DNA of 64,000 nt, from NCBI RefSeq assembly GCF_030908405.1, contig NZ_CP133089.1:62001-126000 (forward strand). The letters are read 5' to 3'. This DNA is from Aminobacterium sp. MB27-C1 (GTDB lineage Bacteria > Synergistota > Synergistia > Synergistales > Aminobacteriaceae). Shown piece after piece: positions 16,253-32,687 of this stretch. Both the position numbers and the translations under genes were made by a program. Within the stretch, counting starts at the first letter, position 1. Each line of letters begins with the position of its first letter. The notes under the pieces are model-generated. The model was not told the DNA's origin. It searched no databases and saw nothing but the letters and a program-made list of their open reading frames with translations.

Positions 16253-17442
16253 CAACAACCCTTGATCGTAGAACGTTTTGGCTCTGCTGGCTCGTAACCT
16301 ATCTTGGGCAGGCCTATGTTTCTATGTTTTTTATGTACCCCGTGGCCTTGCAGCAACAAGGTATTTCTCTCGCTTTGACAGGATGGCTTATGAGTATCTT
16401 CAGCGTGGCTTCAACTCTGATCCGTCCTGTTGGAAGCCTGATGAGCGAGAGGATTGGTGTTCGCAAAAGCCTTCTTTTTGCCTCTCTATTGCTTTTTGTT
16501 TGTTCTCTCCCCTTTCTTTTCTTTAACTCTTTTAGCTCTCTTATGGTTATTCGGGGGAGTGTGGGGCTTTTTTATGGAATAGTTATGGTCGCCGTAACCA
16601 CGTATCAGGCTTTGAGTATTCCTTCGGAACGCCGAGGGAGTCTCTATGCGTGGATAGCCATTGCCTATGTTTTGCCGCAACTCTCAGTGCTTCCTTTGAG
16701 TGAGTTTTTCCTTTCTAAAGTAGGAACCTTTGCCTTCCTGACTCTTGCTCCAATTATTGCTATAGCAACATTTGCAGTGTCAAAACAGCTTCCGAGATTG
16801 AAAGATCTCAAAAAAGAAAGTAAAGAGACAGAGGATACATACTTGACACAAAGTAGCTCTGAACAAGAAGAAAATTGGGGAAGCTGGAAGGAAATGTTTT
16901 ATGTTCCGGGTTTCTGGCCTCTTGTGCTCACCCTTTTATCGTGGTCTTTCCTCAATTCTTCCACGTTACAGTATATGCCAGCTTTTATCCGTTCTCGCGG
17001 CTTGATTGCTTCTTCCTTTATGGCTGCCAATGCCGGAGTTGCCCTTCTTTTACGTCTTTTCGCCATTCGCCTTATGGATAAGCTTGATAGAAAAATTGGC
17101 AGCGGTTTTACCATAGCCTTAATGGGGGCTATTGTTATCGTGACACGTTTTGCCTCCTCTAACCACTCTTTCTTCCTATTGGGAGCAATATATGGTTTAG
17201 GAATGGGAATTGGGTTTCCAATGATATTGGCTCTTATGCCCGATATTTTTCCTGAGAGGCTTAGGCCTAAAGGAGTTGCTGCAGGAACACTGCTTATCGA
17301 GTTCGGTTTTATCTTTACCCCCTTTCTTATGAGCTACGGCGGATCGATCTTCGGATTGGGCAATATGTTGGCTTTTATGGGGTGTATAGGTTGTGCAGGA
17401 GGTTTGTTCTTGAGTCTCTTTGTATGGCGGAAGAAAGCGTAG
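16249..17442 (+). CDS. MFS transporter
   Basis: A 397-residue major facilitator with twelve predicted hydrophobic segments and a hydrophilic central loop (about 178-218, KESKETEDTYLTQSSSEQEE). A loop 2-3 motif variant appears as GSLMSERIGVRKSLL. Substrate cannot be inferred. GTG start overlaps the RNase H stop, with AGGAGA about 10 bases upstream. Its last 68 bases overlap the 3' end of the convergent ABC ATPase gene. Confidence 0.85.
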   Translation: MTTTLDRRTFWLCWLVTYLGQAYVSMFFMYPVALQQQGISLALTGWLMSIFSVASTLIRPVGSLMSERIGVRKSLLFASLLLFVCSLPFLFFNSFSSLMVIRGSVGLFYGIVMVAVTTYQALSIPSERRGSLYAWIAIAYVLPQLSVLPLSEFFLSKVGTFAFLTLAPIIAIATFAVSKQLPRLKDLKKESKETEDTYLTQSSSEQEENWGSWKEMFYVPGFWPLVLTLLSWSFLNSSTLQYMPAFIRSRGLIASSFMAANAGVALLLRLFAIRLMDKLDRKIGSGFTIALMGAIVIVTRFASSNHSFFLLGAIYGLGMGIGFPMILALMPDIFPERLRPKGVAAGTLLIEFGFIFTPFLMSYGGSIFGLGNMLAFMGCIGCAGGLFLSLFVWRKKA

Positions 17443-18214
17443 GAAGAGCAGCTACGAGGGCCTTCGTGTAGTTGTGTTGGGGGGCGGTAAGAAGAGTTTT
17501 TGTGCTGTTTTCTTCACAACACTCTCCTTTGAGCAAGACCATGCCGTGGCTGGCTGCCGCTCTGGCCAGATAGAGGTCATGGGTAACAAATATCATCGAC
17601 ATTCCCTCTTTTACCCTCTTGTTAAGCACTTCGATAATTTCACTTCGTGTTGAAGCGTCCTGCATGCTTGTTGGCTCATCACAGAGCAAAAGTCGAGGTT
17701 CAAGAATCAAGGCTCTGGCTATTGCCACTCGTTGCCGTTGACCTCCAGATAAGCCGAAGCGCACTTGAGAAAAGAGCAGCCTCTCTTCAGTTATACCTAA
17801 CGTATGTAAAAGGTGACGTGCTTTACTATACGCATCCAAGCGACTCTTTCGTCCATAAACTATAAGCCAGGGTTCAGCAACGGCATCTATAACAGAAAGA
17901 GTTGGAGGAAGGCTCCCATAAGGATCTTGAGGAACATACCCACATTTCCTACGTAGCTCTATTAAAGAGTGGTGTGTGCATGTATTGATATTTTCGCCAA
18001 AAAGCTCTACATACCCTGACGTCGATTGAATGAGTCCAAGAATAACCCTAAGCAAAGATGTCTTCCCGCTCCCAGATTCTCCTATTAAAGCGAGGCTTTC
18101 ACCTTGCTTCAAAATAAGAGAAATATCTTTGAGGGCCCAAATGCCCTCCATTTTAGGGTCTCTTGAGGGGTAGAAGAGGCTGACCTTATTTGCCGTTAAA
18201 ATTGTGTTTGTCAT
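17375..18214 (-). CDS. Peptide/nickel-type ABC ATPase (OppF/NikE-like)
   Basis: A 279-residue ATPase with Walker A IGESGSGKTSL, signature GLSGGQRQRVAIARAL, Walker B LLLCDEPTSMQD and switch His FVTHDLYLA. The usual 'DEPxSALD' D-loop reads TSMQDAS here, a small deviation. The C-terminal OppF-type extension is short. Its start overlaps the stop of the partner ATPase by 4 bases. Last gene of a five-gene minus-strand operon (binding protein, permease, permease, ATPase, ATPase). Confidence 0.9.
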   Translation of the reverse strand: MTNTILTANKVSLFYPSRDPKMEGIWALKDISLILKQGESLALIGESGSGKTSLLRVILGLIQSTSGYVELFGENINTCTHHSLIELRRKCGYVPQDPYGSLPPTLSVIDAVAEPWLIVYGRKSRLDAYSKARHLLHTLGITEERLLFSQVRFGLSGGQRQRVAIARALILEPRLLLCDEPTSMQDASTRSEIIEVLNKRVKEGMSMIFVTHDLYLARAAASHGMVLLKGECCEENSTKTLLTAPQHNYTKALVAALPTLSSAIQRDSRTNLLHNLYTP

Positions 18215-18993
18215 ATCTCTTCACCTTCCAAATGAAGTAATGCTTTTACAAGTTGTTTGGTGTGCTCATGGTGCGGATTTTTCACAATTTCTTCAGGAGA
18301 ACCCTTTTCCACTATTTCTCCCTCATGCATAACGGCGATTTTATCGCAGATTTGGGCAGCAAGAGGAAGGTCGTGGGTGACGAAAAGAAGCCCCATATCC
18401 TTCTCTTTTGTTAATGTAGCTAGTGTTTCTACTATCTCTCTTTGGGTAATGACATCTAAAGCGGTAGTTGGTTCGTCGGCAAGAAGAAACGTTGGATTAC
18501 ATGCTAAGGCTGTGGCTATAGCTGCCCGTTGTTTCTGTCCCCCCGAAAGCTCATGGGGATAACGATTAAGATATGATGCATCAAGCCCAGCTTCTTTCAT
18601 AACCCTTTCACATCGTTGCTTTATTGCATGGGGTGGAAGTTCCATGTGAAACGTCAAAACCTCTTCAATATGTTTCCCGATAGTTAATACTGGCGTAAAA
18701 GAGTTCATGGCTCCCTGAGGAATAAGAGCAATCTCTTTCCAACGTATGGTATTGAGAGTGTCTTTTTTAAGAGAGAGAATGTCGAGATCGTCAAGAAGAA
18801 TAGCTCCAGAGACTTCAGTATTAGAAGGAAGAAGCCTTGGAATAGCCATAAGTAAAGAACTTTTCCCACTGCCGGATTCTCCGACAAGACCGATGATTTC
18901 CCCCTTGGGAATAGAAAGTGAGGCGTTGTTTACGGCAAATACGCTTTTTGATGGCGTTATATATGTAATGGAAAGATCGATGATTTGTATCAT
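18211..18993 (-). CDS. Peptide/nickel-type ABC ATPase (OppD/NikD-like)
   Basis: A 260-residue ATPase: Walker A LVGESGSGKSSL, Q-loop ALIPQGAMNSF (typical of OppD/DppD), signature ELSGGQKQRAAIATAL, Walker B LLADEPTTALD, switch His FVTHDLPLA. It lacks the C-terminal Cys-containing oligopeptide extension seen in the DppD at 27329. Overlaps both neighbours by 4 bases, so translation is coupled through the operon. Confidence 0.93.
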   Translation of the reverse strand: MIQIIDLSITYITPSKSVFAVNNASLSIPKGEIIGLVGESGSGKSSLLMAIPRLLPSNTEVSGAILLDDLDILSLKKDTLNTIRWKEIALIPQGAMNSFTPVLTIGKHIEEVLTFHMELPPHAIKQRCERVMKEAGLDASYLNRYPHELSGGQKQRAAIATALACNPTFLLADEPTTALDVITQREIVETLATLTKEKDMGLLFVTHDLPLAAQICDKIAVMHEGEIVEKGSPEEIVKNPHHEHTKQLVKALLHLEGEEI

Positions 18994-20186
18994 TGTTTAA
19001 GTGCTCCCTTCAATTGGGGGTCAATCTGCTCTTCAAGAAATTTCCCGAGATCAAGAAAAATCAGACAGAGTAGGGTTATGCCAAGACCAGGGGGCAGAAG
19101 CATCCACCATGCTCCACGGGTAAAAGCTCCGAAAGAATGGGCTTCGTGAAGCATCCTTCCCCACGAAATGATTCTGGGGTCTGAAAGGCCGAGGAAAGAT
19201 ATTCCCGCCTCGGCTAAAATAGCACCTGGAACACCGAGTGCTATGTTGGCCAGAAGTAGTGGAAGAGTCTCTGGAAGCAGGTGTCGCCAGAGAATGTAAA
19301 AGGTCGGCGCGCCGAGACCACGAAGACCTTCTATATAACTACTGTCGCGGAGAGATAAAGTCATGGCTCTGACAGTGCGTGCTGTTCCCATCCACGAGAA
19401 GAGCGATAAGATAAGAACGAGTTGCCATAATCCCTTTCCCCAATAGGCGGCAAGTACCATAAGAATGGGAAGAATGGGTATAGAAAGAAGAATATCGACA
19501 CCCCTCATAATGATGGTATCTGTCCAGCCGCCGGCATAGCCACTGATCAAACCGAAGAAAAGGCCGAGCAGGGAGGCCAAAAGTGTTGCTGATATTCCCA
19601 CAATGAGAGAAACACGGATTCCGGCAATGAAGAGCGAAAAAATATCTCTTCCCCGTTGATCGGTTCCTAAAAGGCCCCACCGTCCTCCCTTAATATCAAA
19701 TGTTATCGTTCCTCTCATTTCCGGTGGAGCTGAAAAATCAGGTTCGACGCGAAAGATATATTCACCTTTTTCTGAAAAAAGTTCGCTCGGAATCTGGGCG
19801 AAAGGAGAAAAATTAAGCCTTTGTTTAAAGGAAAGGTCTCGTCCGTCTATGTCAAAAGTATTTTTCCCAACAGTTAAGTGGTGCAAAACAAATTTTTGTG
19901 TCGGAGTTTCGAGAACAAGGGCAGATGGAACAGAGAGCGTTATCTCACCTGAAAGATGAATTTGTGTCGGAGGATTGTAGGGCCAGGCAATATTTTTTTT
20001 CAGGATATTTTCTGAAAGAGTTATTTTCATTGTGGGAGGAAGATTCCTCTTGAGCCATAATGGTGTTGAAAAAGGTGGTGCAACCTCTTGGTTGGGAGAA
20101 ACCGACAATGAAAAAGGGGCCAAAATGCTCAAAACTGCTATAAAGAGAAGAAGTAAAAAACTCCATCGTCGAAAGAGGCTCATCAT
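18990..20186 (-). CDS. OppC-type permease with a large inserted extracytoplasmic domain
   Basis: A 398-residue permease. After the first span (about 8-28) comes about 135 residues (36-170) of beta-rich, presumably periplasmic sequence (THLSGE-like strands, FRVEPDF), then the family motif LLGTDQRGRDIFS at about 172-184, five more spans, and the EAA loop EGLRGLGAPTFYILWRHLLPE. Ordinary OppC/DppC proteins have under 100 residues between the first span and GTDxxGRD and total near 300 residues; the DppC at 26467 is an example. The extra domain may dock the unusual permuted binding protein of this operon. Confidence 0.88.
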   Translation of the reverse strand: MMSLFRRWSFLLLLFIAVLSILAPFSLSVSPNQEVAPPFSTPLWLKRNLPPTMKITLSENILKKNIAWPYNPPTQIHLSGEITLSVPSALVLETPTQKFVLHHLTVGKNTFDIDGRDLSFKQRLNFSPFAQIPSELFSEKGEYIFRVEPDFSAPPEMRGTITFDIKGGRWGLLGTDQRGRDIFSLFIAGIRVSLIVGISATLLASLLGLFFGLISGYAGGWTDTIIMRGVDILLSIPILPILMVLAAYWGKGLWQLVLILSLFSWMGTARTVRAMTLSLRDSSYIEGLRGLGAPTFYILWRHLLPETLPLLLANIALGVPGAILAEAGISFLGLSDPRIISWGRMLHEAHSFGAFTRGAWWMLLPPGLGITLLCLIFLDLGKFLEEQIDPQLKGALKQ

Positions 20187-21169
20187 TAGCGCCCTCTCCT
20201 TTCGAAACGAACACGGGGATCGACTATACCGTAGAGAAGGTCAGCGGCAAGGTTGCAAAAGATAGTGAGAAGGGCCAGAAGATAAAAGGAAGCACCTGCC
20301 GATGGGTAGTCTTGCCCTGTAATGGCTTCCAGCAGAAAACGGCCTACCCCATGGAGGGAAAAGACTGTTTCTGTAATGACGGCTCCAGAGATAATGCCAG
20401 GTAACGAAAGAAGAAAAATCGTTAGAAGAGGAGGAAGCAGTGTACGAAAAGCGTGATTCCAGACAATATGTTTTTCAGGAAGTCCCCGAGCTTCTCCCAT
20501 AAGAATGAAGTCTTCGCTTAGCACTTTAACCATAAGATTGCGAACATAGAGAGCCCATCCCCCGAATCCCAGAAGAACAAGCGATCCCACAGGCAAGATT
20601 AAGTGCCATATATAATCTGTTAACTGAGCCCAGAATCCAATGGGAGGAGGAACAGAAACACTTCCCCGCAAAGGGAAAAGGGGAATGGCATACGCAAAAA
20701 TGAGAAGAAGCAGCAACTGAACAAAAAACGAAGGGAAAGAAAAAGAGACAGCTCCACTCCAAAGAACGATCTTTTCGATCCATTTACCACGTTTTAAAGC
20801 CGCCTGTATGCCAAGCCAAGTTCCCAGAAAGGCTGAAAGTAAGAGGGCACTCCCCAATAGAGTAATCGTGTTGGGAAGACGGGTTGCCAATTCTTCCCAT
20901 ACGGTACGTCCCGTTAAAAAGGAGTAGCCGAAATTAAAAGTTATCATTTGCTTAAGGTAAAGCAAAAACTGAAAACTCAAGGGCTTATCAAGGCCGTAAA
21001 GTTTCGATAGTTCTGCCTTCGCCTCAGGAGAGAATCGAGGGTCGAGCATGGTTGCTACAGGATCTCCTGGCATAAGTCGAAAGAGAAAAAAATTTAAAAT
21101 GAGAACCACAAACAAGACGAGCAGAGAACCTGCGATACGTCGCCACCAGTAGCTTTTCATTTCTGTCAC
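20186..21169 (-). CDS. OppB-type permease
   Basis: A 327-residue permease with six spans. Family features: FFLFRLMPGDPV near the N-terminus, LYGLDKPLSFQFLLYL, and an EAA loop around FILMGEARGLPEKHIVWNHAFRTLLPP. Partner of the OppC-like permease, with which it shares one base at the gene junction; its start overlaps the binding-protein stop by 4 bases. Confidence 0.93.
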   Translation of the reverse strand: MTEMKSYWWRRIAGSLLVLFVVLILNFFLFRLMPGDPVATMLDPRFSPEAKAELSKLYGLDKPLSFQFLLYLKQMITFNFGYSFLTGRTVWEELATRLPNTITLLGSALLLSAFLGTWLGIQAALKRGKWIEKIVLWSGAVSFSFPSFFVQLLLLLIFAYAIPLFPLRGSVSVPPPIGFWAQLTDYIWHLILPVGSLVLLGFGGWALYVRNLMVKVLSEDFILMGEARGLPEKHIVWNHAFRTLLPPLLTIFLLSLPGIISGAVITETVFSLHGVGRFLLEAITGQDYPSAGASFYLLALLTIFCNLAADLLYGIVDPRVRFERRGR

Positions 21170-22833
21170 CGGTTATTTAAGAGCCAGAAAAGAGGATTCT
21201 TCGTGAGGTGTACATACTCCCCAGGCCTGTATTCTCTAAAGATAAACGGACCTGACCCCATAAGCTGAGTTAGTTTTTTCTCTTTATCAAGCCATGTTTG
21301 AGATGGTTTCCAGCTCCGCCAATCTTTCACCTGCTCTAAAACGTGCCGGGGAAAGAGAGGAAGGCCTCCTATGTTATGAAGATGCCAGTAGCTTGTAGAG
21401 TTCATTGTAACAATAAGAGTTTGAGCATCGGGAGTTTCAATGTTTTCTACATCTCGTACCGAATCGTAATAGCGGGGTAATTGATGGTTTTTCAGATATT
21501 CAATAGTGTAGGCTGCGTCTGATGAGGTTAATGGGCGTCCATCCTGCCAAAGCATCCCCTTCTTCATATGAAATGTAAGTTGGGTAACATTATGTTTATC
21601 TTTTTTCACGGTATCGACAGACCATGATTCTGCTACCCAAGGAAGATCTGTTAACGTCTCTGGATCAATAGCGAGAAGAGAATCATAGATAAAGGCCAAT
21701 ACATTCCAGTCGTAGGCAGAACTCGTATCAAGGGGGTTGAGAGAGCGTGGCTCGTCAAGTAAAACCCATCGGAGAGGTTTCATGGAGCCCTGCGCAGGTT
21801 CCAACTGGAAAAGACTCCAAATATTATCAGCTGTCGTATAAGACGTTGTAACATATCCCTTCCACGATGATGTGGCCGCCGTAATAAAATATCTACTATA
21901 AATTGGAATAACAGGAACAAGTTCTGAAAGGAGCTTTTGGCTTTCGGAAGCTGCTTCTCGAGCTGCTTCTTCGTCAGGGGCCCATCGAAGTCGAGATACA
22001 ACATCATCAAGTTGAGGATGGGATATTCCAGAAATGTTATAGCCGCCTTGTACATCCATGGAAGAATGATAAAAAGCGAAAAGAGAATCGGGATCGCGAG
22101 TCATTTGCCATGCTAAAACATACGTATCGAACTTCCGTTCGTCAAGACGGGCAATCATGGCTGAAAAGTCCATAGGCTCTACCTCTAGGGGAATTCCAAT
22201 TGCACGTAGAGACGTTGCTATCCGTTCAGCTATTTCAGCCGTTGTCGGTGAAACTTGAGCTGTGGGAGAGAGCATCTTCATTGGAGGTAGCTCTCGGTGT
22301 TCTTCTGGATCTGTAAGAATTCCTTTGTTATTCCACGTCCAACCGGCATCTTTCAACCTTTTTTTAGCCTTCTCCGGATCAGAAAAATAATGAATAACAT
22401 CTTTTTCATAGTAGGGAGAAGCAGGTGGTAAAAATGTGGAAAGGGGCTCTGCGTAACCTGAGAAGAGATCACGAACTATCTTTTCGCGGGGAATAGCTTC
22501 CCATGCAGCTTGTCTGAGTTCTTGCCGATTCCACGGAAACATTCGAAGATTCATTCCGAAGAAAAAACCATGAAAGCCTTTTGCCAATGACATCTGAATT
22601 GATGCATTTTGTGATAATCGCTCTATATCAGCGGGACGGGCAATATCTGTAAGCATCTGTATTTCATCTTTTTCGAGGGCCAAAAGCTGAGCGTCAGGAT
22701 CACGAATAATGACAAGGTACAGATCCTTGATTTTAGGGCCTCTAAACAGAGACATATCAAAACTGTACCCCTCTTGGGGAAAAGACAAACTGAGCAGAAA
22801 AGCAACGCTGAATAATATAAAGAAACGCTTCAT
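21166..22833 (-). CDS. Family-5 solute-binding protein in circularly permuted order
   Basis: A 555-residue exported protein: Sec signal peptide (1-24), then sequence in the family SBP_bac_5 but with its two parts swapped. Residues 31-345 correspond to the usual second part (IKDLYLVIIRDPDAQLLALE, then a GMNLRMFPWNRQELRQAAW segment, then DPEKAKKRLKDAGW). Residues 354-555 correspond to the usual first part (LRWVLLDEPRSLNPLD, DGRPLTSSDAAYTIEYL, and the end GSGPFIFREYRPGEYVHLT). The last residues lead naturally into residue 31. The canonical order can be compared in the same window at 31158. It is one open frame with no break. ATG 22833 follows GGGGGTG; an upstream in-frame ATG at 22863 lacks a site. 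First gene of the operon; probably binds peptides or a related ligand. Confidence 0.88.
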   Translation of the reverse strand: MKRFFILFSVAFLLSLSFPQEGYSFDMSLFRGPKIKDLYLVIIRDPDAQLLALEKDEIQMLTDIARPADIERLSQNASIQMSLAKGFHGFFFGMNLRMFPWNRQELRQAAWEAIPREKIVRDLFSGYAEPLSTFLPPASPYYEKDVIHYFSDPEKAKKRLKDAGWTWNNKGILTDPEEHRELPPMKMLSPTAQVSPTTAEIAERIATSLRAIGIPLEVEPMDFSAMIARLDERKFDTYVLAWQMTRDPDSLFAFYHSSMDVQGGYNISGISHPQLDDVVSRLRWAPDEEAAREAASESQKLLSELVPVIPIYSRYFITAATSSWKGYVTTSYTTADNIWSLFQLEPAQGSMKPLRWVLLDEPRSLNPLDTSSAYDWNVLAFIYDSLLAIDPETLTDLPWVAESWSVDTVKKDKHNVTQLTFHMKKGMLWQDGRPLTSSDAAYTIEYLKNHQLPRYYDSVRDVENIETPDAQTLIVTMNSTSYWHLHNIGGLPLFPRHVLEQVKDWRSWKPSQTWLDKEKKLTQLMGSGPFIFREYRPGEYVHLTKNPLFWLLNNR

Positions 22834-25528: not shown

Positions 25529-26452
25529 GTGCTTAGGTATGTCTTTCGAAGAATCTTGCTACTCATACCCGTTGTTCTAAGTGTCATGGTTATCATCTTC
25601 ACGATTTTGTACTTTACTCCTGGAGATCCTGCGCAAATTGCTCTTGGTCAAGAGGCGACCGTCGAGACTGTCGCAGCATTCCGTGCTGAACGAGGTTTGG
25701 ATGACCCATTCTTTGTTCAGTTGGGGCGCTATCTTTATCGGGCAGTTTTCCATGGGGATCTTGGGTACTCGTACGCGATGAAGAGCCCTGTTTCTATGGA
25801 GTTGGCTTCACGCATTCCGGTAACTATGAAACTAGCCTTTTGGGCTGTTGCTTTTAGTACTTTGGTGGGAATCCCATTGGGGGTTATTTGCGCAATACGT
25901 CAATATTCTATTTTGGATAGTATTACGACCCTTATAACCCTTCTCGGTGTTTCTATGCCTACTTTCTGGAGTGGCCTTCTATTTATTCTTGCTTTTTCAG
26001 TGTATCTCGGATGGTTGCCATCCATGGGATTCGATACGGTGAGCCAGATGGTTATGCCCATTATTACGTTGTCCGGATCTGCCGTAGCCCTCATAGCCAG
26101 AATAACAAGGTCGAGTATGCTAGAGGTTATTCACTCAGACTATATTCGTACCGCTCGTGCCAAGGGTCAAAAAGAGAGTATCGTCATTATGCGCCACGCT
26201 TTGCCAAATGCCATGATTCCCATTCTTACCATCATTAGTATGCAATTTGGAATGCTTCTTGGCGGTTCTATTGTTACAGAAGCTATATTCTCCATCTCTG
26301 GCGTGGGCCGTCTCATGTTAGAGGCTATTAATATGCGCGACTATCCCATCATTCAAGGTGGCGTTCTCTTTATTTCTATCGCGTTCTGCCTTGTCAACTT
26401 AACGGCAGATATCCTCTACGCGTTTGTTGACCCTCGTATTCATGTGAAATAG
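25529..26452 (+). CDS. dppB: Dipeptide-type ABC permease (DppB/OppB-like)
   Basis: A 307-residue permease with six spans: ILYFTPGDPAQIALGQEA near the N-terminus and an EAA loop IRTARAKGQKESIVIMRHALPNAMIPI. Start GTG 25529 with GAGAGGTGG upstream. First gene of the peptide island; downstream come dppC, dppD, dppF, a small membrane protein, an M20 hydrolase and the binding protein. Probably under the operator at 25425. Confidence 0.93.
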   Translation: MLRYVFRRILLLIPVVLSVMVIIFTILYFTPGDPAQIALGQEATVETVAAFRAERGLDDPFFVQLGRYLYRAVFHGDLGYSYAMKSPVSMELASRIPVTMKLAFWAVAFSTLVGIPLGVICAIRQYSILDSITTLITLLGVSMPTFWSGLLFILAFSVYLGWLPSMGFDTVSQMVMPIITLSGSAVALIARITRSSMLEVIHSDYIRTARAKGQKESIVIMRHALPNAMIPILTIISMQFGMLLGGSIVTEAIFSISGVGRLMLEAINMRDYPIIQGGVLFISIAFCLVNLTADILYAFVDPRIHVK

Positions 26453-26466
26453 AGGTGGGAAGCTCA

Positions 26467-27318
26467 ATGTTTAAAAATAATTCTATGATGAAATATACCC
26501 TTATACGGTTGAGAAGAAACTATCTTGCAGTGCTTGGTATTGTTATTCTTCTCATATTGATAGGTATGGCCATATTTGCAGATCAAGTTGCTCCTTATGG
26601 TTATGCTGACCAAGACTACATGATGATCCGTAAACCGCCTTCCACGACCCATCTTTTGGGAACCGACGAATTTGGGCGAGATGTTCTCAGCCGAATTATT
26701 TTCGGTTCAAGGGTTTCTTTGCAAGTCGGTCTGATCGCTGTTTCAATTTCTCTTATTGCAGGTGGTGCTATCGGAGCTATTGCCGGATATTTTGGTGGCA
26801 AAATTGATAACTTCCTGATGCGTATCATGGATATCCAACTTGCTATCCCAACCATACTTTTGGCAATCGTTATATCTGCCGCCCTTGGGCCTGGTCTGTT
26901 CAACCTGATGGTAGCTGTTGGTATAACATCAATTCCTCGTTTTGCCCGTCTGATGAGAGCTTCCGTTCTCTCGATAAAGGGAATGGAGTTTATTGAAGCG
27001 GCGCGGGCTATGGGCGCGAGTCATACGCGCATCATTTTGTTATATATATTGCCAAACTGTGCGGCACCCCTGATTGTTCAGTCTACCCTCAGTGTCGCAA
27101 ACGCAATACTTTTTGCAGCTACATTAAGTTTCCTTGGCTTGGGTATTCAGCCTCCCTATCCGGAATGGGGTGGAATGCTTTCTGCTGCGAGACCGTATCT
27201 CAGAAACAGTGCGTACTTAAGTATTGCTCCCGGATTGGCAATTATGATCACCATTATGGCTTTGAACTGCGTTGGCGATGGACTTCGGGATGCCCTTGAT
27301 CCGAAGCAGAAACGGTAG
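26467..27318 (+). CDS. dppC: Dipeptide-type ABC permease (DppC/OppC-like)
   Basis: A 283-residue permease of normal length: first span at about 20-40, LLGTDEFGRDVLSRIIFGSR, then an EAA loop EAARAMGASHTRIILLYILPNCAAP. The ATG at 26467 follows AGAGGTGG by 8 bases; an in-frame GTG at 26455 overlaps the ribosome binding site. Heterodimer partner of the permease at 25529. Confidence 0.94.
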   Translation: MFKNNSMMKYTLIRLRRNYLAVLGIVILLILIGMAIFADQVAPYGYADQDYMMIRKPPSTTHLLGTDEFGRDVLSRIIFGSRVSLQVGLIAVSISLIAGGAIGAIAGYFGGKIDNFLMRIMDIQLAIPTILLAIVISAALGPGLFNLMVAVGITSIPRFARLMRASVLSIKGMEFIEAARAMGASHTRIILLYILPNCAAPLIVQSTLSVANAILFAATLSFLGLGIQPPYPEWGGMLSAARPYLRNSAYLSIAPGLAIMITIMALNCVGDGLRDALDPKQKR

Positions 27319-27328
27319 GTGTACTAAA

Positions 27329-28333
27329 ATGACGAACATGGTAGATGATAACTCTCCCCTTCTTGATATTCGCAATCTTTCCGTGCGTTTTAATACAGAT
27401 TCGGGTGTTGTCGAAGCTGTAAATAACCTGAATCTTTTTCTGCGCAAGGGAAAAGCTCTTGGTCTCGTTGGTGAGACTGGAGCGGGTAAGACTACCACAG
27501 CTCTTGCCGTCCTTCGCCTTATTCAATCTCCTCCTGGAGAAGTAACAAACGGAGAAATCATTTTCGAAGGTCAGGATATTATGAAAATGACCGAAGCCGA
27601 AATGCGGCATATTCGTGGAGACAGGATCGCTATGATTTTCCAGGATCCCATGTCCTCTCTTAACCCCATTATGACTGTTGAAGAACAAATAATGGAAATG
27701 ATTTCACTCCATTCTGACTTAAATAAAGAACAAGCTCACGAACGTGCTCTTGAAATGTTGAAGCTTGTCGGAATACGCACAGAACGAGCAAAGGATTTCC
27801 CTCACCAGTTTTCCGGCGGAATGCGCCAAAGGGTAGGTATTGCCATTGCTCTTGCATGTAAGCCAAGTCTTTTGATTGCAGACGAAGCAACTACGGCTCT
27901 CGATGTAACAATACAGGCACAGGTTTTGGAGCTTATTAAAGAACTTCAGTCTGTTGTTAACACGTCATTGATTTTAATTACCCACGATTTGGGAATTGTT
28001 TCTGAGATCTGCGATGACGTAGCGATTATGTACGCTGGCCGTTTGGTCGAGTATTCAGATATTCGGAGTTTGTACAGTAAACCCATGCATCCTTACACAC
28101 AGGGCCTTTTTAATGCTGTCCCTAGCCTTGATAGTGATATTAGCCAAAAATTACATGTTATTCCTGGGTTGCCGCCCGATCCTACCGATTTGCCGAAGGG
28201 GTGCTGTTTCTCCCCCCGTTGTCCCTATGCTCGGGATATTTGCCACGAAAAAGCTTGTGGCATGAAAGAGTATGAGCCCAATCACTTTGTCGATTGTTAT
28301 TTCCCATTGGGTGTTGAAGGGAGGCGGCCGTAG
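27329..28333 (+). CDS. dppD: Dipeptide ABC ATPase (DppD-like)
   Basis: A 334-residue ATPase. Walker [19 protein letters not shown]-loop [12 protein letters not shown], signature [16 protein letters not shown], Walker [13 protein letters not shown], switch His LITHDLGIV. The C-terminal oligopeptide/dipeptide extension carries the Cys-rich motif [15 protein letters not shown], which in relatives binds a [4Fe-4S] cluster. ATG 27329 is preceded by TAGGTG; upstream in-frame codons fall inside dppC. Confidence 0.94.
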
Positions 28334-29319
28334 TGTGTGCACAGGTCGAAAAAACAGAAACTTTCATAGAGATTAAGCATCTTAAGAAATATTTCAACGT
28401 CCATAAGGGCCTTTTACATGCCGTAGATGATGTCAACCTCTCGATCCCAAGGGGGAAAACTCTGGGATTAGTCGGAGAATCCGGTTGTGGAAAGTCAACA
28501 CTGGGAAGAGTTGTCATTGGTCTTATTGAAGCAACGGGCGGAGAAGTTCTTTTTGATGGAGAAGATACTCTTAAATATAACAAAGAAGAAAGAAACGAAT
28601 TCAGAAAAAGAGCTCAGATCGTATTTCAGGATCCCTTCTCTTCATTGAATCCGAGAATGTCTGTCTCTCAGCTTATTGCCGAACCATTGTTGATTAACAA
28701 GACATGCTCAGGCAAAAAAGAGATAGATGCCAAAATTAAAAAATTAATGGATACGGTAGGACTTGCCGAGAGGCTTGCTACTTCTTTTCCTCATGAGCTT
28801 GACGGTGGTCGTCGTCAGCGCATTGGAGTAGCCAGGGCCCTTGCTCTTGATCCTGATTTTATAGTGCTTGACGAACCCGTTTCGGCGCTTGATGTCTGCA
28901 TTCAGGCTCAGATTCTCAATTTGCTTGGCGATTTGCAAAAAGAACGTGAGTACACCTATCTGTTTATATCTCACGATTTGAGTGTTGTTCGTTACGTTTC
29001 TGATGAAGTGGCTGTTATGTACTTGGGGCAGGTTGTTGAAAAGGCTGAAAATATAGCACTTTTTAAAGAACCGCTTCATCCCTACACGCAGGCTTTACTT
29101 TCAGCTGTTCCCGTTGTGGATTTAGACAACAAAAAGAAAAGAATATTGCTTGAAGGTGATGTCCCTAGTCCAATTAATCCTCCAGCTGGATGTCGCTTTG
29201 CAGGACGTTGTGCCTATCGTCAGGATATATGCACGAAGGAAACGCCGCTTCTTAATGAGATAGAACCAGGGCACTTCGTTTCGTGTCACTTTACTAAACA
29301 TCTAGAACGTCATAAATAA
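28333..29319 (+). CDS. dppF: Dipeptide ABC ATPase (DppF-like)
   Basis: A 328-residue ATPase. Walker A LVGESGCGKSTLGRVV, Q-loop IVFQDPFSSLNP, Walker B FIVLDEPVSALD, switch His FISHDLSVV. The signature region reads LDGGRRQRIGVARAL instead of the usual LSGGxxQR: the conserved Ser is Asp, which is odd because that Ser contacts ATP; the partner site is normal. C-terminal Cys motif GCRFAGRCAYRQDIC. The GTG start shares one base with the dppD stop. Confidence 0.93.
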   Translation: MCAQVEKTETFIEIKHLKKYFNVHKGLLHAVDDVNLSIPRGKTLGLVGESGCGKSTLGRVVIGLIEATGGEVLFDGEDTLKYNKEERNEFRKRAQIVFQDPFSSLNPRMSVSQLIAEPLLINKTCSGKKEIDAKIKKLMDTVGLAERLATSFPHELDGGRRQRIGVARALALDPDFIVLDEPVSALDVCIQAQILNLLGDLQKEREYTYLFISHDLSVVRYVSDEVAVMYLGQVVEKAENIALFKEPLHPYTQALLSAVPVVDLDNKKKRILLEGDVPSPINPPAGCRFAGRCAYRQDICTKETPLLNEIEPGHFVSCHFTKHLERHK

Positions 29320-29331
29320 CGGAGAAAAATT

Positions 29332-29913
29332 ATGCGCTCAAATGCCGAACAGACATCAGAACACATGCGATGGTTTACAGGTGTACCCATAGGAACAAAT
29401 CCTCTCATACTTTTAGATATGGGAATTTCTTCCGTGATTTTGTGGAGCCTTGCTGTTGTTCTTGTCATTTTGCTTCAGGCATTTTTCGGCAAGTCGATGA
29501 GTGGGGCATATATTCGTTCTGCTGTTCTTTTTGCCAATTATCTTGTTGCTTTCGTAGTTGGAGCTTTTTTGATTGTTGCTTTTTTGCTTTTCCCAAATCA
29601 TTACGTGGTTCTCTATCGATTCGACCCTGAGTATGCATATAGCGAAAGCATGAAAGGGAAGAGGTTTTCTTTGAGAGAGAGTATGCACTGGCGTCCCTTT
29701 CAAGTAAACGCTATAGAGAAGTTTAAACGTAACGTTACCAAAAAAGTTCAATGGAGTGACGTGCGTTGCTTCCAGACAATGGATACAATGCACGTTATCT
29801 TCCTGAAAGGAACAAAAGGCACTCTTATGCGAATTTATTGCCCCGATGAGCATGTCTATAGGCAAGCAGTGGCCTATATTCAGCAAAGAGAAATAAAGGA
29901 GATCAAAAAATGA
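29332..29913 (+). CDS. Small membrane protein of unknown function in the peptide operon
   Basis: A 193-residue protein I do not recognise. Two hydrophobic spans at about 30-52 and 60-87 are followed by a cytoplasmic-looking, basic domain of about 100 residues (KFKRNVTKKVQWSDVRCF, KGTKGTLMRIYCPDEHVY) with a beta-alpha feel like a small PH-type or sensor fold. It lies 12 bases after dppF, and its stop overlaps the start of the M20 hydrolase (ATGA), so it is a true operon member. It may help the transporter or hydrolase; no function is claimed. Confidence 0.75.
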   Translation: MRSNAEQTSEHMRWFTGVPIGTNPLILLDMGISSVILWSLAVVLVILLQAFFGKSMSGAYIRSAVLFANYLVAFVVGAFLIVAFLLFPNHYVVLYRFDPEYAYSESMKGKRFSLRESMHWRPFQVNAIEKFKRNVTKKVQWSDVRCFQTMDTMHVIFLKGTKGTLMRIYCPDEHVYRQAVAYIQQREIKEIKK

Positions 29914-31097
29914 ACTCTATCCTTGCTCAGAAGGTTCAGGAATTTGCACAAGATGTCATTGAGTGGAGACATCAGATTCATCAGAACCCTGAATTAGGTT
30001 TTTGTGAATTTGAGACATCCAATTTGATAGAAGAGAAACTTCGTTCTTTTAATGTCGATAAAATTCAAAGAATCGGAAGAAGCAAAACGGGTATCTGTGC
30101 TGAACTTTATGGAACGGGAAACGGGCCAAAGCGCTGTATTGGTCTTCGTGCAGATATTGACGCATTGCCGATTCAAGAACAATCCGGAGTCTCATATGCT
30201 TCTAAAAAAGATGGAGTTTTTCATGGTTGTGGCCATGATTCTCATGCTGCTATTTTGCTTGGTACAGCCTGGCTCCTCAGTGAATTGCGGGATCAGTTTT
30301 CAGGGTGTGTGAAATTCTTTTTTCAACATGCCGAAGAGCTTTCAGGCGGTGGTAAAGAGTTTATAGAAGCAGGAGTAATGGAAAATCCCCACGTTGATGG
30401 AGTGTTGGCCCTCCATGCCCTTCCAGATATATACCTGGGAGAAATAGGCGTTCGAGATGACTTCATGACTGCTGGTATTGACCGAATAAAGATTACTGTA
30501 GAGGGTAAACAGGCTCATGGTGGATATCCTCACTATGGAGTCGATACAATTCTGGCAGCTTCAACCATAGTGACCACACTTCAGAGTCTAGGCTCACGAG
30601 AGCTGGCTCCTACCGATTGTGCTTTTGTAACTTTTGGTCGCATCGAAGGTGGAATATCAAATGCCTATATAGGAGGTCCCGTCGTTATTGAGGGTTCCAT
30701 TCGTTATCTCCGCAAAACGACGCAGGAACGTTTCCATCGGCGAGTCAGAGAAATTGCGACGAATGTTGGGCAAGCGTTACGAGCAAAAGTCACAGTGGAA
30801 ATAACGCCCAATATAATCCCGACATGCGTTGACAAGGAATGGGTAAATCGCGTTCGAAGAGTTTGTCGTGATATTGAATCAGTTGAGAGAGTTGTAGATT
30901 TGCCTTCACCCGCTATGGGAGGGGAGGATTACGCATATTTCTTGGAAAAGGCTCCTGGAACTTTTTTCAGATTAGGAGTCAGAACTCCTGGTGGGCCCCA
31001 TTGTCCAACACATTCAATAGATTTTTATATAGATGATCGAGCTATTCCTATTGGCATGGAGGTGATGGCAGCCGCGACACTTGATGCTTTGCGGTAA
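29910..31097 (+). CDS. M20 family amidohydrolase/aminoacylase
   Basis: A 395-residue zinc hydrolase of the M20D group (IAA-amino acid hydrolase, N-acyl-L-amino acid amidohydrolase). Visible: WRHQIHQNPELGFCEFET, metal ligands in GCGHDSHAAILLGTAWLL, a catalytic Glu pair in FFQHAEELSGG (usually PAEE), LALHALPD, a dimerisation domain with GKQAHGGYPHYGVD, and AMGGEDYAYFLEKAPGTFF with the C-terminal His in THSIDF. It would release amino acids from N-acylated or dipeptide substrates brought in by Dpp. ATG overlaps the preceding stop. Paralogue at 33931. Confidence 0.92.
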   Translation: MNSILAQKVQEFAQDVIEWRHQIHQNPELGFCEFETSNLIEEKLRSFNVDKIQRIGRSKTGICAELYGTGNGPKRCIGLRADIDALPIQEQSGVSYASKKDGVFHGCGHDSHAAILLGTAWLLSELRDQFSGCVKFFFQHAEELSGGGKEFIEAGVMENPHVDGVLALHALPDIYLGEIGVRDDFMTAGIDRIKITVEGKQAHGGYPHYGVDTILAASTIVTTLQSLGSRELAPTDCAFVTFGRIEGGISNAYIGGPVVIEGSIRYLRKTTQERFHRRVREIATNVGQALRAKVTVEITPNIIPTCVDKEWVNRVRRVCRDIESVERVVDLPSPAMGGEDYAYFLEKAPGTFFRLGVRTPGGPHCPTHSIDFYIDDRAIPIGMEVMAAATLDALR

Positions 31098-31157
31098 AAT
31101 TTGATTTTACTCACTTTTGTTTGGCATTACTTACTACTTTTTAAGGAGTGAAGGGAT

Positions 31158-32687
31158 ATGAAGGGAAAGAAATTTTTACACTTGTTCTTTGCTGCAGCTA
31201 TGTTACTCGTAGTCGCAACCGCTGGTTTCGCTGCTACGATGGATACTTTCACTCTCGGTCTTCCGGGAGACGCGAAAAGCCTCGATCCTCAGAAGGCTAT
31301 GGACACCATGTCATTTGCTGTTACTAAACATATTAATGAGCCTCTTGTAACAGTAGATGGTAAAACCAAAAAATTGGTTCCGGTGTTGGCTGAGCGTTGG
31401 GAAATTCTTGACGATCACACGTACAAGTTTTATCTCAAAAAAGGTGTAAAGTTCCATAACGGAGATGAACTTACAGCAGAAGATGTAGTGTATTCTCTGA
31501 AGCGTGTAACGACATCTGAATCTGTTTTCGCCAAGTCAAAGGGCAAATTCATAGATCCTGAGGGATTTGAGATTATCGACAAATATACGGTGATTGTAAG
31601 AACCCGCGGTCCTGTTGGTGGCTGGCTTGACTCTATGAAGCACCCCTACGCCAGTATCTTTTGTAAAAGAGCCGTTGAAGAAGGTGGCAAAGAGTATTTC
31701 CGTAACCCAGTAGGAACAGGCCCCTTCAAATTTAAGAGCTGGATAAAAGGTGAGCGAATTGAACTCACAGCCTTTGAAGACTATCACGGCAAAAAACCGA
31801 ACTTCAAGAACTTCAATATTCTCGTTCTTCCTGACGATAGCAGCAGAGTTATTGCTCTTGAGACAGGCACAGTAGATATGATCTACTCTGTACCACCCAA
31901 TGACTGCCAGAGATTGAAAGAGTCTGAAAAGGTTAAAGTTGTAGAAGCTCCGGGACTTGTTTTGACTTTCCTTGATATGAATACACAGAAGAAACCTCTT
32001 AACGATCCTAAGGTTCGCCTTGCTCTTGAGTATGCTGTTAATAAAGAGGCTTATAACGCTGTTGTCTACCAGGGAACCTCTTCTATTCCCAACGGGCCAC
32101 TGCTTTCTGCCTGTACCTTTAGCCCGGAGAATGTGAAGACATATCCCTACAACCTTGAGAAGGCGAAAGAACTTCTTAAAGAAGCAGGTTATCCAGATGG
32201 CATGACATTAGAGCTCTGGGTCAGCAATTTCCAAGATCAGGTAAATGGAGCTACAGTCATTCAGTCTATGCTTGCTCAGATAGGTATTAAAGTTAATATC
32301 CAGGTTTTCGAATCAGCTGTATTTGACGATCACGTGAAGAAACATACACACGATCTTCTTATCAGCAGATGGGGAATGCAGACAAACCGCGACGCTGGAC
32401 AGTATTGGCTTCCTCTTTTCCATTCTTCAAACGTCAACTCTTCAAACTGGACATTATTGAGCGATAAAGAACTTGATACATATATCGATACAGCGAATAT
32501 AACAATAGATACTGAAAAGAGAACAGAGCTCTTCCAGAAAGCATGGGATAGACTTGATGTTCTTCACCCTGTTGTTGTTCTTGCAGTGCCTCACGAATTG
32601 TATGGCGCCAGAAAAGATTTGGTAGGCGTAGAAGACCTTTATGACGGTCGTTTGAATTACTTGGGGAACCTTTCTTTAGCAGATTAA
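31158..32687 (+). CDS. dppA: Peptide ABC transporter substrate-binding protein (DppA-like, SBP_bac_5)
   Basis: A 509-residue periplasmic binding protein in the normal family order: signal peptide to about residue 26 (AGFAA), FTLGLPGDAKSLDPQ, FYLKKGVKFHNGDELTAEDV, NPVGTGPFKFKSW, then LPDDSSRVIALETGTVDM, MNTQKKPLNDPKVRLALEYA, YNLEKAKELLKEAGYPDG. It feeds peptides to DppBCDF. AAGGAG lies upstream of the ATG. A 60-base gap separates it from the M20 gene, and a strong terminator follows. It serves as the internal reference that shows the permutation of the protein at 21166. Confidence 0.94.
   Translation: MKGKKFLHLFFAAAMLLVVATAGFAATMDTFTLGLPGDAKSLDPQKAMDTMSFAVTKHINEPLVTVDGKTKKLVPVLAERWEILDDHTYKFYLKKGVKFHNGDELTAEDVVYSLKRVTTSESVFAKSKGKFIDPEGFEIIDKYTVIVRTRGPVGGWLDSMKHPYASIFCKRAVEEGGKEYFRNPVGTGPFKFKSWIKGERIELTAFEDYHGKKPNFKNFNILVLPDDSSRVIALETGTVDMIYSVPPNDCQRLKESEKVKVVEAPGLVLTFLDMNTQKKPLNDPKVRLALEYAVNKEAYNAVVYQGTSSIPNGPLLSACTFSPENVKTYPYNLEKAKELLKEAGYPDGMTLELWVSNFQDQVNGATVIQSMLAQIGIKVNIQVFESAVFDDHVKKHTHDLLISRWGMQTNRDAGQYWLPLFHSSNVNSSNWTLLSDKELDTYIDTANITIDTEKRTELFQKAWDRLDVLHPVVVLAVPHELYGARKDLVGVEDLYDGRLNYLGNLSLAD

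Follow-up and report, generated by a model that had tools for sequence, protein, structure and literature searches.

The window analysed here, a stretch of 64,000 nucleotides from Aminobacterium sp. MB27-C1, contains a gene (21166..22833, minus strand) that we take, with a probability of about 0.9, to encode a family-5 substrate-binding protein (DppA/OppA type, structural cluster C) that has undergone circular permutation in nature. The 555-residue product, which defines the lineage we call T1, reads in one frame as signal peptide, C-terminal half and N-terminal half, and about nine residues link the old C terminus to the old N terminus. The initial annotation had proposed such a permutation, and the swapped profile matches, a rotation test, an order kept in 69 relatives and a single-fold model all speak for it.

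Swapped halves in the sequence and in the predicted fold

The T1 frame is unbroken from the ATG at 22833 to the TGA at 21166, as had been claimed, and a GGGGGTG stretch a few bases 5' of the ATG is a plausible ribosome site. By inspection of the translation, the N-terminal MKRFFILFSVAFLLSLSF is a putative export signal, giving a signal peptide of about residues 1-25 (22759..22833) without a lipobox cysteine. After the new N terminus comes the original C-terminal half (residues 33-349; 21787..22737), which runs through the junction EPAQGSMKP (residues 345-353; 21775..21801) into the original N-terminal half (residues 352-553; 21175..21780), all on the minus strand.

Against the Pfam profile SBP_bac_5 (PF00496) the protein scored 215.8 bits (E 1.3e-63; curated cut-off 32.4 bits) in two stretches, the better of which pairs residues 43-265 with profile positions 146-360. 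A genome-level scan of the frame found profile 146-360 and then, further downstream in the gene, profile 4-142, so that the co-linear order is inverted and a single co-linear match needs a rotation of the chain. For comparison we used the ordinary-order DppA of the window (31158..32687, plus strand), which lies outside the permuted operon and matches PF00496 1-366 in one stretch. In BLASTP, T1 residues 41-319 aligned with residues 212-473 of this DppA (E 1e-12), in line with the earlier statement that the protein starts in the middle of the family pattern at about DppA residue 212, and T1 residues 359-554 aligned with DppA residues 26-204 (E 8e-10). The comparison DppA belongs to another Dpp-type importer, an ordinary one, whose genes (25529-32687) include peptidase-like ones and adjoin the permuted operon on the opposite strand.

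The dot-plot-type check suggested for this protein was run numerically, as a rotation scan with an HMM built from 42 ordinary family-5 proteins (profile length 521). In its native order the T1 chain gave a best single match of 210.1 bits over profile positions 216-511; with residue 343 as its first residue, it reached 353.2 bits in one co-linear match over profile 34-511, a gain of 143 bits. The ordinary DppA, included as a control, stayed flat (437.5 bits native, 438.3 bits at the best rotation, a gain of less than 1 bit). No co-linear alignment of T1 in its native order appeared in the profile, BLASTP or rotation tests. Judged from these sequence comparisons, T1 is best classed as a permuted variant derived from SBP_bac_5 and not an ordinary member of that family.

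The breakpoints can be read from the chain itself. In an ordinary relative (L132:4782-6470) the C-terminal end is GNYWSFLFIKPLK and the start after the signal peptide is NILKIGMQNEPKTLNP; the T1 junction reads DNIWSLFQLEP-AQGSM-KPLRWVLLDEPRSLNP. Across the lineage the junction region is short and variable in sequence, and T1 retains no further signal peptide at this internal junction. The new ends lie in the loop that follows the strand pair GSGPFIFREYRPGEYVHL and a short NPLFWLL segment (NPxFWLL). The chain ends with NNR, just before the point at which the ordinary protein would enter its next strand, and that would-be strand, IKDLYLVII, sits here shortly after the signal peptide. The initial annotation was thus right that T1 ends with the normal N-terminal part, but its end point, VHLT, has to be moved, as eleven more residues (KNPLFWLLNNR) follow.

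Structure prediction, which had also been suggested as a check, returned a single compact fold. The AlphaFold model of T1, for which an alignment of 52 T1 relatives was used, has a mean pLDDT of 93.5 and a pTM of 0.87, with 477 of the 555 residues at a pLDDT of 90 or above. Using Foldseek and VIA-align, model residues 26-348 superposed on residues 205-520 of AppA (1xoc; Z 30.7, rmsd 4.8, 311 residues aligned), and the C half also superposed on the corresponding regions of DppA, NikZ and NikA. Both programs keep sequence order, so each match shows one half of T1 at a time, and the solved structures aligned over T1 residues 26-349 only. Taken together, the AlphaFold pTM and the profile evidence predict that both halves pack into one compact family-5 fold.

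Distribution of T1, its operon and its putative role in import

A scan of named species genomes yielded 15 relatives of T1 at 42-60% identity, with matches spanning nearly the whole query; all come from metagenome-assembled genomes titled Synergistaceae, Synergistetes, Synergistes or Pyramidobacter. Among 185 Synergistota genomes, 107 gave a match at E <= 1e-20 and 106 carry the permuted protein, the sole match in the remaining genome (G073) being an ordinary relative. The T1-bearing genomes, some of them single-contig genomes, belong to ten groups at family level. At the same threshold, the family of the window itself has matches in 28 of its 81 genomes (G073 included), and the permuted protein was absent from all 43 genomes of one genus of this family (g10; G019-G061), which suggests a loss. 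When relatives were checked for the order of the halves, the same swapped order was conserved in all 69 distinct full-length T1 sequences taken from the fetched loci. When 52 of them were aligned, column identity averaged 57% and many columns were invariant. Two further copies (L097:7280-8952 in G116 and L098:2-1607 in G175) are each broken into two frames, through either sequencing error or decay, and the copy in G113 contains one TAG.

T1 heads a five-gene operon on the minus strand with the order binding protein-B-C-D-F, in which consecutive genes overlap throughout. The start of the DppB/OppB-type permease gene (20186..21169; PF00528 and PF19300; Opp2B/Opp4B-like, below the respective cut-offs) overlaps the T1 stop, and it is followed by genes for a DppC/OppC-type permease of 398 residues (18990..20186; PF00528 at residues 208-384; Opp4C-like over 172-391, below the cut-off), a DppD/OppD-type ATPase (18211..18993; PF00005; CntF/NikD/OppD-like, below their cut-offs) and a DppF/OppF-type ATPase (17375..18214; PF00005 and PF08352). 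The locus therefore holds the binding protein, two BPD_transp_1 permeases and two ABC ATPases of an Opp/Dpp-type importer operon. Most of the 48 loci examined show this gene order too, the exceptions being contig ends and one locus (L065). In the latter (L065:4406-7031, G071), a gap of about 2.6 kb separates the dppB- and dppC-type genes.

The DppC-type permease carries an insert (19671..20099, minus strand) after its first hydrophobic segment. In all 44 sequences compared, the protein has about 390-400 residues and a spacer of 131-162 residues between the first hydrophobic segment and a GTDQRGRD motif. The insert is predicted to form a beta-sandwich (pLDDT 90.3); it had no match in the PDB at E <= 1e-3, and the best rows were nucleoplasmin-like domains (7vmf, E 1.1e-3, TM 0.36). 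Of 183 Synergistota genomes, 104 had the insert; in a broad sample of 290 genomes it occurred in one, itself a member of Synergistota, and none was found in the other phyla sampled. T1 and the insert co-occur in 103 genomes; three have T1 alone and one has the insert alone. A few genomes have the permease with the insert and the T1 binding protein on different contigs.

Given an operon of the Opp/Dpp importer type, capture of a small solute and its delivery to the permeases would be the natural reading of T1 function. The protein would be exported, take its solute between the two lobes and hand it to the cognate importer, as family-5 proteins do. Among the matches listed, none of the subunits of the T1 operon reached an NCBIfam cut-off, and T1 itself scored 84.5 bits against the DppA equivalog NF043070, far below its cut-off of 1005. 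In DppA, Asp436 and Arg383 (precursor numbering) bind the ends of the dipeptide. At the position of Asp436, two residues before a conserved Arg, T1 has Met and the variants have Met or Leu; the region of Arg383 reads SPTA or TPLA, in a gapped part of the alignment. Because the Asp436 position holds Met or Leu, the T1 ligand is unlikely to be a free dipeptide held in the manner of DppA. The genes flanking the operon are too poorly conserved to suggest a ligand.

Further permuted lineages and the origin of T1

Three further permuted lineages emerged among family-5 proteins. T2 (L080:6614-8293) comes from a Synergistota genome that has T1 too (G173), and its Pfam match 2-286 lies at residues 260-547 with the last part of the profile placed before it. 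T3 (L131:7648-9381 in G304) is a lipoprotein-like OppA homologue from another, small phylum that matches OppA structures such as 1b05 in two stretches (E 2.6e-96); it occurs in six of the seven genomes sampled of that phylum (L131, L135-L140) at 62-98% identity. T4 (L149:6235-7854 in G502) was full length in one of the 57 genomes of its family; T2, too, is represented by a single genome. All three have the order C2-N-C1, as opposed to C1-C2-N in T1, and are cut in a different loop, after a helix ending LLxxAGY. Their best rotation-scan scores rose from 276 to 385 bits (T2), from 309 to 465 bits (T3) and from 272 to 346 bits (T4). Each is followed by DppB- and DppC-type genes, the DppC-type proteins having 279-305 residues and lacking the length of the insert in the T1 operon.

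The broad scans with a T1 profile covered overlapping samples of 389, 289 and 388 genomes; in other phyla at most four or at most five candidates were scored per genome for most genomes, and the numbers of permutants there are therefore to be read as "at least". In G454, G401 and G470 matches ran across or beyond the junction, and on inspection these turned out to be ordinary-order proteins (a neighbouring pair in each of G454 and G401). Ordinary proteins also accounted for the matches in G213, G494 and G513 that reach slightly before the junction. A profile match over 137-370 in G262 contains two stops.

For the origin tree, 61 proteins were each cut into three parts that were set in the same order. 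T3 fell inside the OppA-like ordinary proteins (100/100), and each of its halves alone falls in the same OppA-like group with a support of 1.0. T1, T2 and three ordinary proteins were grouped (100/97), and T4 lay outside both the T3 and the T1/T2 groups. In topology tests, for which the clade groups were named after viewing a FastTree tree, a single origin of all four lineages as one clade was rejected (AU p 4.4e-6), whereas T1 and T2 as one clade (p 0.525) and T1, T2 and T4 as one clade (p 0.238) were not rejected. Since the four-lineage clade is rejected and the smaller ones are not, we count at least two, perhaps four, permutation events in family 5.

The initial annotation had attributed T1 to a tandem duplication followed by loss of both ends. 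In such a scheme, a family-5 gene would have been duplicated in tandem and the copies fused in frame, after which the outer halves were lost and the signal peptide of the first copy was kept. This fits the anatomy of T1, as there is a signal peptide at the new N terminus and none at the internal junction; no duplicated intermediate was seen in the genomes searched, and the duplication step is one that we infer. Alternatively, T1 could have been assembled from two family-5 paralogues, one giving the C half and the other the N half, and there are signs that might be taken this way: in the N-half tree T1 does not group with the ordinary G401 proteins, and the best ordinary N half (L081) and the best ordinary C half (L134) belong to different loci. 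We nevertheless consider a chimera improbable, since two ordinary G401 proteins take places 2 and 3 among 49 for each T1 half by itself, the C-half tree groups T1 with the G401 proteins (support 0.733) and the concatenated tree gives 100/97. As far as sequence ranks can tell, the positions of the G401 proteins for both halves fit one ancestor.

Other explanations concern the reality or the fate of the protein and not its parentage. That T1 is an assembly or base-calling artefact, or the nonfunctional remnant of a decayed tandem duplication, is scarcely credible: although a few relatives are broken as described above, the same swapped order in 106 of 185 genomes, the 52-sequence alignment with its many invariant columns and an operon found intact at most of the 48 loci all stand against it, and we rule out an artefact, pseudogene or frameshift on the strength of this conservation across Synergistota and the clean frame. 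Hardly any more weight can be given to the idea that cleavage within the junction yields two chains, which then associate. The shortness and variability of the junction would be compatible with cleavage, but the region is predicted with confidence, the block means of pLDDT being 95, 91 and 89 around residues 351-380 and 94 before that region, and it contains no second signal peptide. The replacement of the DppA-type ligand residues might also indicate that the permuted protein reuses the fold as a sensor or chaperone and no longer serves import, which we regard as very unlikely because T1 is the only binding-protein gene among the five genes of the transporter operon and shares an overlap with the permease gene. 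The reading we retain is that of an importer binding protein permuted as one chain and derived from a single family-5 ancestor.

Known systems and meaning for the family

Family-5 binding proteins are standard models of the relation between chain topology, hinge motion and transporter docking, and the solved structures matched here all share one order. T1 resembles DppA, OppA, AppA and NikA (cluster C, PF00496) in scoring far above the family cut-off, and it is like ordinary family-5 proteins in that its C half superposes on AppA, DppA and NikZ and that it heads an operon of the B-C-D-F type. It differs from them in its swapped halves, its new termini and the fusion of the old C and N termini, and from DppA in lacking the Asp and Arg and in reaching no NCBIfam equivalog cut-off among the matches listed. 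T2, T3 and T4 share with T1 the family-5 affiliation, the fused old termini and the adjoining permease genes.

A permuted importer binding protein is an already known kind of protein, and the closest published example found is one from Treponema. Going by its published description, MglB-2 (Tp0684) of Treponema pallidum, termed 'Type Ic / Cluster Bc', is a natural circularly permuted glucose-binding protein whose structure and ligand binding are published, which keeps the two-lobe fold and which is common to several taxa (PMC4990184). Like T1, it is a naturally permuted importer binding protein; unlike T1, whose listed sequence and fold matches are of the family-5 type, it is described as type I/cluster B and as permuted within the N lobe, which sets the two apart (PMC4990184). 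We found no description of a natural permutation within family 5 in the open-access literature searched, in agreement with the initial annotation, and within that literature the occurrence in family 5, the phylum-wide spread and the recurrence look new.

A wider scenario, which we offer tentatively and consider possible but rather doubtful, is that family-5 proteins have been repeatedly and viably permuted (in two to four events, at two preferred loops), that the Synergistota permutant was fixed early and co-evolved with the beta-sandwich permease, and that the relocated termini and the permease domain together make up a distinct docking arrangement. Profile annotation hides permuted binding proteins, because each half scores as an ordinary match. 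A phylum-wide permutant that exists beside ordinary relatives in the same genomes provides a natural test of which features of chain order matter, and the independent permutants cut at the second loop suggest where new chain ends can be placed in this fold, a useful guide for biosensor design.
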